Below, piece by piece: positions 20,818 through 23,488 of a stretch of 34,945 nucleotides of DNA. The translations under genes were made by a program, and so were the position numbers. The DNA comes from Aquihabitans sp. (lineage in GTDB: Bacteria; Actinomycetota; Acidimicrobiia; Acidimicrobiales; Iamiaceae): positions 1 to 34,945 of the forward strand of contig JANXNS010000143.1 in NCBI GenBank assembly GCA_025353965.1, in the 5' to 3' direction. Numbering within the stretch: the stretch's first letter is position 1; each line of letters begins with the position of its first letter. Below the pieces are notes generated by a model, which was not told where the DNA came from, searched no databases, and worked only from the letters and a program-made list of their open reading frames with translations.

Positions 20818-21155
20818 CTGGGATCATCGTTGCTTCCTTCAAAGACCTGCCCGATGGCGGCGCCACCCGCGTAGACGTTGGCGGGCGCCGCCTTTCGGTC
20901 ATCCGTATCGACCAAAGCGTCTATGTCATCGGGGATCGTTGTACCCACGCCGACGTATCGCTCAGCGAGGGCGAAGTTGATGTCGACACCTGCCACATCG
21001 AATGCTGGAAGCACGGCAGTTCGTTCTCGCTCGTCACCGGCGAACCCGATGCGTTCCCGGCCACCCGCCCCGTGCCGGTCTATGAGGCCCACGTGCTGAA
21101 CGGTGATGTCGTGGTCACCCTGCCCGAACCAACCGAAGATGGCGCCAATGTCTGA
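20814..21155 (+). CDS. Rieske [2Fe-2S] ferredoxin-like protein of the suf operon
   Basis: This 113-aa soluble protein carries one Rieske [2Fe-2S] cluster site: C43-T-H45 in DRCTHADVSL and C64-W-K-H67 in ECWKHGSSF. It corresponds to the ferredoxin-type component of non-haem oxygenases. Such a gene commonly sits between sufD and sufC in actinobacterial suf operons, where its exact function is not settled; electron supply for cluster building is one proposal. ATGA overlap with sufD and an 8-base overlap with sufC show tight coupling. An extra cysteine (C60) lies close to the cluster ligands. Confidence 0.93.
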   Translation: MTGIIVASFKDLPDGGATRVDVGGRRLSVIRIDQSVYVIGDRCTHADVSLSEGEVDVDTCHIECWKHGSSFSLVTGEPDAFPATRPVPVYEAHVLNGDVVVTLPEPTEDGANV

Positions 21156-21945
21156 GCTCGTGATCGAAGGCCTGCGGGCCGGTGTCGATGGTAAAGAGAT
21201 CCTCCAGGGGATCGACCTCGTGGTTCGCAGCGGCGAGGTTCACGCCGTGATGGGTCCGAACGGGTCGGGTAAAAGCACCCTGTCGCACGTGATCATGGGC
21301 CGTCCCGGTTACCAAATCACTGGGGGCTCGGTCACCCTCGACGGCGTCGATGTCTTGGCGCTGGACACCTGGGAACGGGCCCAGGCTGGTCTCTTTCTCG
21401 CACTGCAATACCCGACCGAGGTGCCGGGCGTGTCGGTAGAAGCCATGCTGCAAGCGTCGTTCGCCGCTGGTGGACGGGATGCTTCAGAGGTCCCTGCCCT
21501 CGTGGCCGTAGAGGCAGGCCGTATCAACTTCGACGAGCGGTTCCTTGGCCGGGATCTCAACGTGGACCTGTCGGGTGGCGAGAAGAAACGCAACGAGACG
21601 CTCCAGCTCGGTGTGCTCCGCCCCAAGATCGCCATCCTCGACGAGCTGGATTCCGGCCTCGACGTAGACGCCCTCCGCGACTGCTCGCGCCGGGTGGAAC
21701 AAGCGACCAGCGAGACCGGCCTCGGCGTTCTGGCGATCACGCACTACACGCGCTTGCTCCGCGAACTCAAGGTCGACCGGGTCCACATCCTGGTGAAGGG
21801 CCAGATCAAGGCCACCGGCGGGGCCGAACTGGCCGACGAATTGGAGACCGACGGCTACGCCGCCTACGTCGATGACGACCCAGACGCCAAGCCAGTCGAC
21901 GTCTACAAAGACCCCTTCGGCCCAGGCCCCTTCGCCGAGCGCTAG
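21148..21945 (+). CDS. sufC: Fe-S cluster assembly ATPase SufC
   Basis: SufC is the ABC-type ATPase of SufBCD, driving shape changes of the SufB-SufD scaffold during cluster assembly. In the 265-aa protein the Walker A is GPNGSGKS (36-43), the signature LSGGEKKRNE (141-150), and Walker B reads ILDELDSGLD (163-172), the SufC-specific variant; the switch histidine is in ITHYTRLL. The ATG at 21148 gives the expected SufC N-terminus; an in-frame ATG at 21139 adds three residues. It is the last gene of this block. A long palindrome (21968-22018) lies 22 bases after its stop. Confidence 0.96.
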   Translation: MSELVIEGLRAGVDGKEILQGIDLVVRSGEVHAVMGPNGSGKSTLSHVIMGRPGYQITGGSVTLDGVDVLALDTWERAQAGLFLALQYPTEVPGVSVEAMLQASFAAGGRDASEVPALVAVEAGRINFDERFLGRDLNVDLSGGEKKRNETLQLGVLRPKIAILDELDSGLDVDALRDCSRRVEQATSETGLGVLAITHYTRLLRELKVDRVHILVKGQIKATGGAELADELETDGYAAYVDDDPDAKPVDVYKDPFGPGPFAER

Positions 21946-21967
21946 CCCCACCCCCACCGCCGCCGAC

Positions 21968-22018
21968 CGAAGATGTCGCAGTTAGGCAGTCTCTGTCGCC
22001 ATAACTGCGACATCTTCG
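21968..22018. repeat. Palindromic repeat element, copy 1
   Basis: CGAAGATGTCGCAGTTA at 21968-21984 has its exact reverse complement at 22002-22018, a perfect 17-base stem with a 17-base loop. The same arm sequence recurs in copy 2 at 23114-23166 with an unrelated loop. It lies between the convergent ends of sufC and the 22034 gene. No T-run follows on either strand, so it is not a standard intrinsic terminator, though termination cannot be excluded. It may be a REP/MITE-type element or the binding site of a dimeric protein. Confidence 0.85.
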
Positions 22019-22033
22019 TGGGGTTGGGGCCGA

Positions 22034-22474
22034 TCAACCGGGGCTGGCCGACCTTGGGCAGTCAGCGGCCGAGCGCTGATCAAGTGTGCGGACAGCCTGG
22101 CGGAAACTCTTGTCGTCGAGCGGCCGAGTCGAGTGGTCGCGGAGTGCCTTGCGGATCCCGCGCCCCACGAGGAGCGCCTCCGGTCTGACCTCAGTGGGTG
22201 CAGACCGAGCGATGCTGTCGGAATACGTGAGCCGTGAGCCTGCAGCCAAATAGCCAACCTCATCGCTGGTGGGATCGGCCTTGATGGTGGCTCGTAGGCG
22301 GTCCACTGCTGCCGTGGGCCGACTGAACGAGAGGCAGTAGGTGTCCGGAGGCTTGCCCTCGCCTGTAGGTCGTAGGACAAATGCTGCGCTGGCAATGGCC
22401 ATGACGAGCACCACGACGATGGCCAGCCACCACGGTCGGCCGGATGGTTTTGAGGTTGGATCTAGGGAATTCAT
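22034..22474 (-). CDS. Membrane-anchored exported protein of unknown function
   Basis: I do not recognise this 146-aa protein. A single hydrophobic helix at about 14-33, after a short polar start, should anchor it with the C-terminal 110 residues outside the membrane. Two cysteines (C47 and C139) near the ends of the outer domain could form a disulfide. Its start overlaps the stop of the lipoprotein gene upstream (22471-22474), so the two are co-translated. The pair sits between two copies of a palindromic repeat and is visibly less GC-rich than its surroundings, which suggests later acquisition. Confidence 0.65.
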   Translation of the reverse strand: MNSLDPTSKPSGRPWWLAIVVVLVMAIASAAFVLRPTGEGKPPDTYCLSFSRPTAAVDRLRATIKADPTSDEVGYLAAGSRLTYSDSIARSAPTEVRPEALLVGRGIRKALRDHSTRPLDDKSFRQAVRTLDQRSAADCPRSASPG

Positions 22475-23022
22475 GTGGCGTATGACCCCCGCTTGCAGTG
22501 ACTGTCGGCATCGATCCGATAGGTCCAGTTGTAGGCGCCGAATGCCGCATGGTCACCGACGACGCAGCGGTTTGCGTAGTACTGGCCGCCTCGGGTCTTT
22601 GCAATGCCGCCGGATAACACGTCATCTATGGCACCCGCGTAGTCCGCCCACCGGCCCCCCTCGGTGAAATGGTTCCACTCCATGGTGCCACTCGAGGAGA
22701 CATGAATCTTGGTTCGAAGGTAGGTAAGTGAACACCGGCTCCAGGTCTCCCGAGCTTGGCCGTGTTGGCCCTGGCATTGGAGGCGCAGACCGACCAGAGC
22801 AGCGCTCGGCATCTGGTAAATCGTGAATCGGTAGCGGGTGCCGGTGTAGCTCACCTCGATTTGTTTCCCGGAGTGGAACGTGCAGCTTCCGAGCACGACG
22901 GCCAGCAGTATCGCGAGGCCGGCTGTCCGCAGCGGATTTCGTCGGCTAGGTGGCGGGGGTCGCAGGGGGCCAGGTTTCGATGGAGGGTCGATTTTGGCAC
23001 GGGCTACCAACGTTCGGTTCAT
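22471..23022 (-). CDS. Putative lipoprotein of unknown function
   Basis: I do not recognise this 183-aa protein beyond its export signal. A proline-rich basic N-terminus leads to a hydrophobic stretch and a lipobox LGSC (44-47), so Cys47 is probably lipidated and the protein anchored outside the membrane. Four later cysteines (in LQCQG, SRCSLTY, NRCVVGD and SHCKRG) could form two disulfides. The body is rich in Tyr, Thr, Ser and Gly, and looks mainly beta. The ATG at 23022 has a GAGGAAA ribosome site upstream; a longer frame to 23301 would read through the palindrome and the divergent gene. It is followed by the 22034 gene with a 4-base overlap. Confidence 0.7.
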
Positions 23023-23113
23023 GTGGGGGGTTTCCTCAGGTTGTCTGCCTCGACGGGAAGTGTCGAATACACAGAAACGTACTAGTAAGCACGGCAAAGT
23101 GGTAAAAAAGCTT

Positions 23114-23166
23114 CCGAAGATGTCGCAGTTAGGCCGGTATGGAGCGCCTAACTGCGACATCTTCGG
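23114..23166. repeat. Palindromic repeat element, copy 2
   Basis: The arms 23114-23134 and 23146-23166 are perfect 21-base reverse complements around an 11-base loop. They contain the same 17-base core (CGAAGATGTCGCAGTTA) as copy 1, 1.15 kb away. Here the element lies between divergent genes (the lipoprotein gene and phhB), not at gene ends. The right arm ends 22 bases before the phhB start, so it could affect transcription of phhB. Confidence 0.85.
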
Positions 23167-23176
23167 CGGGCTGGGG

Positions 23177-23182
23177 CAGGAT
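23177..23182 (+). promoter_or_regulatory. Weak -10-like hexamer for phhB
   Basis: CAGGAT ends six bases before the ATG at 23189. It differs by one base from the TAGGAT before sufD, which has the same spacing. It lies directly beside palindrome copy 2. Confidence 0.3.
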
Positions 23183-23188
23183 CTGGGT

Positions 23189-23488
23189 ATGGCTGAACCT
23201 GACCTCACTCCGCTCTTGGCTCCTGAGGGGTGGGTGGCGGTGGACGGACGGCTCCACCGGGAGTTTGTGTTCGTCGACTTTGCTGAGGCGTTCGCGTTCA
23301 TGACCCGGGTGGCCGCCGAGGCGGAGCGGCTCGGCCATCACCCGGATTGGTCGAATGCATGGAACACGGTCACAATCGACCTGGTGAGCCACGACAAAGG
23401 TGGCCTGACGGACCGAGATTGCCGGTTGGCCGAAGCGATCAACCAGGTTCAGGACGGCTCTGGAGACGGGAAGACATTCGACAACTAA
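23189..23488 (+). CDS. phhB: 4a-hydroxytetrahydrobiopterin dehydratase (pterin-4-alpha-carbinolamine dehydratase)
   Basis: This 99-aa enzyme dehydrates 4a-hydroxytetrahydropterin, recycling the pterin cofactor of aromatic amino acid hydroxylases; family members without such hydroxylases serve molybdopterin or other pterin roles. The family signature is clear: [11 protein letters not shown] (47-56) with adjacent histidines H50-H51, then W58, H68 and D75. The length is normal. No phenylalanine hydroxylase is in the window, so the partner is unknown. A MOSC-type molybdenum-related gene lies 7 kb upstream. The ATG at 23189 is chosen because the longer frame reads through the palindromic repeat. 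Confidence 0.92.

Follow-up and report, generated by a model that had tools for sequence, protein, structure and literature searches.

Dispersed hairpin elements of Aquihabitans and their association with a gene for an AbiEi-type winged helix fused to a nuclease

Among the described systems closest to the locus analysed here are the REP/REPIN sequences with their RAYT (TnpA-REP) enzymes and the AbiE type IV toxin-antitoxin system. REP sequences have stems of 5-13 or 8-9 bp and are defined by a GTAG or CGTC tag (PMC3733652), and inverted REPs lie on either side of RAYT genes (PMC2817692). The AbiEi antitoxin binds the inverted repeat TGTTGCTTTTA-N27-TAAAAGCAACA in its own promoter (PMC3985639) and also binds at the oriT of an ICE (PMC11062541). 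The element examined in this work has a stem of 17 bp, and the AbiEi_4-DUF559 genes associated with it and with similar hairpins are mostly flanked by direct copies. In the element, TGTCGCAGTTA-N17-TAACTGCGACA resembles the AbiEi operator in layout, with 8 of 11 arm positions alike, a likeness that is only suggestive because other hairpin families have different arms.

The window, the whole stretch of 34,945 nt that was analysed, belongs to the Aquihabitans genome G000 (3.18 Mb, a fragmented assembly of 264 contigs) and contains two perfect long palindromes with a common 17-base core, located where the original prediction had placed them (Table 1). Allowing up to 3 mismatches, the 17-mer arm occurs 4 times in the window, whereas shuffled sequences average 0.06 and never exceed 1, and the two palindromes are thus far above chance. 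The loops had been described as unrelated, which is too simple: once the copies are aligned in register, each spacer measures exactly 17 nt, because the extra pairs of copy 2 fall inside the spacer. Relative to the family spacer AGGCGAAATGCACTGCT, copy 1 (in its minus-strand reading) has 6 of 17 positions changed and copy 2 has 8 of 17. The family model scored copy 1 at 81.6 bits on the minus strand versus 61.2 on the plus strand, and copy 2 at 74.3 bits on the plus versus 53.7 on the minus strand; C-rich and G-rich flanks could lengthen the stem of copy 1.

Table 1 Elements and neighbouring genes in the window.
Feature	Position	Strand	Remarks
sufC, Fe-S assembly ATPase	21148..21945	+	stop codon 22 nt ahead of element copy 1
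Element copy 1	21968..22018	-	arm 17 / spacer 17 / arm 17; 17-bp arms at 21968-21984/22002-22018; model match 21956-22030
Orphan ORF P0001, membrane-anchored, 146 aa	22034..22474	-	between window elements
Orphan ORF P0002, lipoprotein-like, 183 aa	22471..23022	-	between window elements
Element copy 2	23115..23165	+	register as copy 1; perfect palindrome 23114-23166 with 21-bp arms at 23114-23134/23146-23166; model match 23103-23177
Pterin-4a-carbinolamine dehydratase	23189..23488	+	PF01329, 4.2e-28; adjoins sufC in congener G005

As the original prediction stated, copy 1 lies between gene ends and copy 2 between divergent starts, and neither copy is followed by a T-run. A Pfam search returned zero families over the cut-off for either orphan ORF, and an Rfam search of the window gave zero matches to known RNAs. 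In congener G005 the sufC and dehydratase genes abut, whereas in G000 a 1.2-kb stretch with the two orphan ORFs and an element at each end separates them. This stretch is an insertion or deletion difference, of which the elements need not be the cause; the proposal of a cassette framed by the palindromes was borne out as regards an insertion relative to G005, with no sign that the palindromes moved the segment. A comparable arrangement was observed elsewhere in G000 (C4:2118-2732, L071), where a lipoprotein-like ORF on the minus strand (2183-2668) fills the gap between two elements.

Across G000 the 17-mer yielded 79 matches with up to 2 mismatches (reversed control, 0), nearly all in inverted pairs with arm starts 34 nt apart. 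The element comprises 51 bases, CGAAGWTGTCGYAGTTA, a 17-nt spacer and TAACTGCGACAWCTTCG, the spacer being exactly 17 nt in all copies but one, where it is 16. The spacer is directional (consensus NGNCGAAATGCACTGCY) and the element is therefore oriented. Conservation is strong in the arms and at some spacer positions, the left flank being merely C-rich and the right flank merely G-rich. A covariance model detected 49 elements in G000 (98 two-strand matches), well beyond the two window copies, about 50-51 in congener G003, a few of them duplicated via contig ends, about 5 in congener G001, and none in the other nine of the eleven congeners compared with G000 or in twelve further family members. 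With a strict pattern, matches among 397 genomes of the order were confined to G000, G003 and a single hairpin in G012. In G003 the core TGTCGCAGTT and the spacing are retained, whereas the spacer differs and the outer arm reads CGAAC. Three copies are common to G000 and G003, where they stand at orthologous gene ends; part of the family was therefore inherited rather than newly inserted. On sequence grounds, both window palindromes belong to a REP-like hairpin family that is dispersed in the genome and restricted to the genus, and the REP-like half of the earlier REP/MITE-like reading stands, with its ~49 dispersed copies, mainly at gene ends, and further copies in two congeners.

Some observations on these surveys deserve mention. 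The two ends of G003 contig C1 apparently repeat each other over about 51 kb (offset about 4,887,352), probably because a circular overlap was left uncut, and the element counts are therefore slightly inflated. The sole match in the genome-contig search, a 41-bp perfect palindrome with the same 11-nt arm between a dehydrogenase and a TetR-like gene of a Pseudonocardia MAG (L108:2959-3000), is probably an operator and a coincidence. Zero matches were found in the viral contigs searched, and a virus origin of the element was dismissed.

The position of the copies relative to genes was far from uniform. Copies are mostly intergenic, many starting no more than about 30 nt from a stop codon, and the 42 copies of clear context in G000 comprised 20 between convergent, 19 between tandem and 3 between divergent genes (G003, with 73.5% GC and poor gene calls, was left out of this analysis). 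Convergent pairs made up 31 of 223 element-free neighbours in the same stretches, a significant difference from the 20 of 42 (p=3.7e-6). Some copies (C164, C235 and C132; L095, L105 and L091) extend over the end of a called reading frame and supply the codons for its final residues (e.g. ...EVVAVKQCISS), as if the element replaced the gene end. Orientation was tied neither to transcription, the element strand being random in tandem pairs (10 same vs 9 opposite), nor to replication, as judged by GC skew (27 vs 21). The convergent and 3'-end placement, together with a very stable fold to which the flanks add ~13.6 further pairs on average, would suit bidirectional transcription terminators or mRNA 3'-end hairpins that share their sequence by chance, but we regard this explanation as very improbable: the T-run that marks intrinsic terminators is absent and the 3' flank is G-rich, one window copy sits between divergent starts, the arms are conserved far beyond the needs of pairing, strand is random in tandem pairs, and the association with a nuclease gene, described below, would be left unexplained.

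Columns 18 and 58 hold A or T on each side independently and without pairing, a pattern suggestive of two half-sites more than of an obligatory base pair. In 18 copies a left-arm T faces a right-arm G, the mirror change being seen in none, and the fold is stabler on the spacer-consensus strand in 41 copies versus 6, which are not independent because of shared ancestry. Within G000, compensatory changes in the arms did not exceed those in shuffles, so age and selection are inseparable there; covariation across genomes is present, arises from few independent changes and also fits symmetric half-sites. An RNA hairpin maintained by compensatory changes was rejected on these grounds.

A comparison of element neighbourhoods in G000 and G003 revealed one gene in common with elements on both sides. 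It encodes an AbiEi_4-DUF559 protein, is the only such gene of G000, lies outside the window on contig C194, and has a G003 homolog 69-70% identical and likewise flanked by the element. Its neighbours on C194, the one place checked for an AbiEii toxin gene, are genes for a ligase and a response regulator, and the surroundings of the G000 element copies revealed no further linked enzyme. G001 contains element copies, its only detected homolog being distant (32%). In the genus, 24 of 30 AbiEi_4-DUF559 genes had a word of at least 13 nt common to both flanks, some of which may be of tandem rather than gene-flanking origin, versus 29 of 391 mechanically chosen control ORFs of similar length (longest common word, 350 nt upstream vs downstream; Mann-Whitney p = 1.5e-14). 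This control is conservative because its ORFs come partly from regions picked for elements. The association between gene and element is, at the level of sequence, well supported.

The protein joins a winged-helix part, for DNA binding, to a nuclease of the EDxHD/Vsr-like type. An alignment of 36 proteins left D237, E248 and H255 as the sole invariant residues, E206 and D264 being nearly so; these residues fit an EDxHD/Vsr-like active site, the motif assignment being our own reading. Profile searches matched the nuclease domain to 3hrl and 3r3p, the latter being the homing endonuclease I-Bth0305I, and in a structure model of mean pLDDT 93.2 the N-terminal part matched AbiEi (6y8q) and the C-terminal domain matched 3r3p.

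We consider it probable, with moderate confidence, that the element is a REP-like repeat with a cognate nuclease gene whose product recognises and spreads it. The winged helix would bind the two arms as half-sites, the nuclease would cut or nick at or near the element, and repair would then establish copies of the short element, and on rare occasions of the gene as well, at further intergenic sites, a spread resembling that assumed for homing endonucleases and RAYTs and their cognate DNA. Tolerated copies would be those downstream of stop codons, where a hairpin may do little harm. The earlier suggestion of sites for a dimeric DNA-binding protein may be partly right, the apparent cognate gene coding for an AbiEi-type winged helix that is fused to a nuclease. 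Alternatively, the elements might simply be binding sites of a solitary AbiEi-type protein acting as a regulator or marker, with a nuclease domain serving another purpose and copies arising by ordinary duplication and gene conversion. The two binding habits of AbiEi cited above and the half-site-like variation of the arms, as at columns 18 and 58, speak for this possibility, which we nevertheless find unlikely in view of the invariant active site across 36 divergent proteins, the location of copies mostly behind genes instead of at promoters, and the spacer consensus common to copies within a genome, as copying predicts.

The arrangement of the flanking copies, direct at 17 loci and inverted at 6 (p=0.03), bears on a further alternative, namely that the hairpins are spread by another, unknown enzyme and that the nuclease gene is a passenger, found between two direct copies because it homes into existing elements. 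Besides the direct flanks, the lack of target-site duplications and the existence of hairpin families in genomes without a cognate gene found there (family C of G004) speak for a passenger; against it stand the dearth of any other linked enzyme at the G000 copies and the pattern of shared element words, which were common to 3 of 12 gene pairs at ≥55% identity, 5 of 583 other pairs and 0 of 32 pairs of same-genome paralogs. Since relatives share element words and same-genome paralogs do not, specific recognition is implied, and the passenger explanation seems to us distinctly unlikely. No clean empty site was found for either the element or the AbiEi_4-DUF559 gene. This result counts against spread by the nuclease itself, as do the lack of target-site duplications, the copies in G001 with its distant homolog, the arms of G000 with their dearth of compensatory change, the three copies inherited at orthologous gene ends, and the phylum loci, described next, that show no clear flanking repeat.

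Solitary AbiEi_4-DUF559 genes were present in 29 of 119 sampled genomes of the phylum, and among 29 loci across the phylum the excess of flanking repeats over same-locus controls persisted (p = 2.4e-4), roughly half of these loci being without a clear flanking repeat. Paralogs carry different hairpin families. For two genomes of one contig each, a hairpin was read from the flanks of one gene only and then sought genome-wide. In G418, from another family of the class and with one such gene, the arm CTTCGGGTGATTAGTGTCGC gave 23 matches at 17 places (≤3 mismatches; reversed control, 0), and in G474, from another family of the phylum and with ten such genes, the arm GATTTCGGTGTAGTTAGT gave 23 matches at 16 places (≤2 mismatches; reversed control, 0), the places including gene-adjacent copies in both cases. 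A plasmid search with the G474 hairpin gave zero matches. Sampling of G004 (400 kb) and G003 (366 kb) uncovered additional hairpin families, some of them tandem at roughly 72-73 bp. Several of these families flank AbiEi_4-DUF559 paralogs, of which G004 and G006 have two each, the others being in G003, G005 and G008. The second family of G003 contig C1, CGAACTTGTGGGCC-24-GGCCCACAAGTTCG, is often tandem at 73 bp (e.g. L133:7203, L217:11592, L225:18624, L227:207) and also lies on the flanks of the AbiEi_4-DUF559 gene at 2168546. G004 has three further families (L193, L202, L210, L200, L204, L206), of which A and B flank its two AbiEi_4-DUF559 genes; for C (TGGCGTAG) none was found in G004, the apparent cognate gene being in G006 and G009 instead. 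These data indicate that the pairing of gene and hairpin recurs across the phylum with different hairpin sequences.

The pairing may represent a new kind of self-spreading DNA. A broader proposition, which we regard as evenly balanced, is that such pairs form a class of mobile DNA spanning the phylum, whose nuclease, of EDxHD type and equipped with an AbiEi winged helix, would recognise its own hairpin family via half-site arms and spread the hairpin by cut-and-repair, at times together with its own gene. This class would be a second and independently evolved answer to REP-RAYT, and many orphan AbiEi/DUF559 annotations would then denote mobility enzymes rather than antitoxins. Our search of the open-access literature, with subscription journals outside its scope, returned no paper tying DUF559 or solitary AbiEi genes to dispersed palindromes and no role for solitary AbiEi_4-DUF559 genes. 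Cognate dispersed hairpins would provide these genes, common in the phylum, with a testable function, and would make the spread of transposase-less REP-like repeats directly testable. They would also point to a second enzyme class for REP-like repeats, one that might supply site-specific nucleases whose targets are readable.

Among known systems, MITEs are likewise small and non-coding with inverted ends, but the element has no target-site duplication of ≥5 nt at any copy, on which ground the MITE part of the earlier reading falls, and no parent insertion sequence with such ends was seen. Integron attC sites were set aside by reasoning, given the dispersed single copies, the lack of cassette arrays and the unfit end motifs. 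AbiE shares the N-terminal winged helix, the AbiEi-like fold and an inverted-repeat operator of similar layout; however, the protein corresponds only in its N-terminal part to the solved AbiEi, whose operator lies in its own promoter whereas the element is dispersed genome-wide. The C-terminal domain matches EDxHD homing endonucleases (I-Bth0305I) in sequence and fold, with the difference that the gene is outside any intron or intein, is fused to an AbiEi-like part and is associated with dispersed hairpins. A RAYT-type partner, as originally suggested, was discarded: Y1 (HUH) transposases of RAYT type (PF01797) were found in 0 of 12 genus genomes while positive controls matched, so this is not a REP-RAYT system, and neither a GTAG or CGTC tag nor another fixed tetranucleotide appears in the columns flanking the stem. 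With an enzyme of unrelated fold, no tag and flanking copies that are mostly direct, the pair is therefore not to be filed as a member of REP-RAYT, which it nonetheless resembles in its short, dispersed extragenic palindromes with genome-specific variants, in a cognate enzyme gene flanked by the repeat, and in different paralogs having different repeats.
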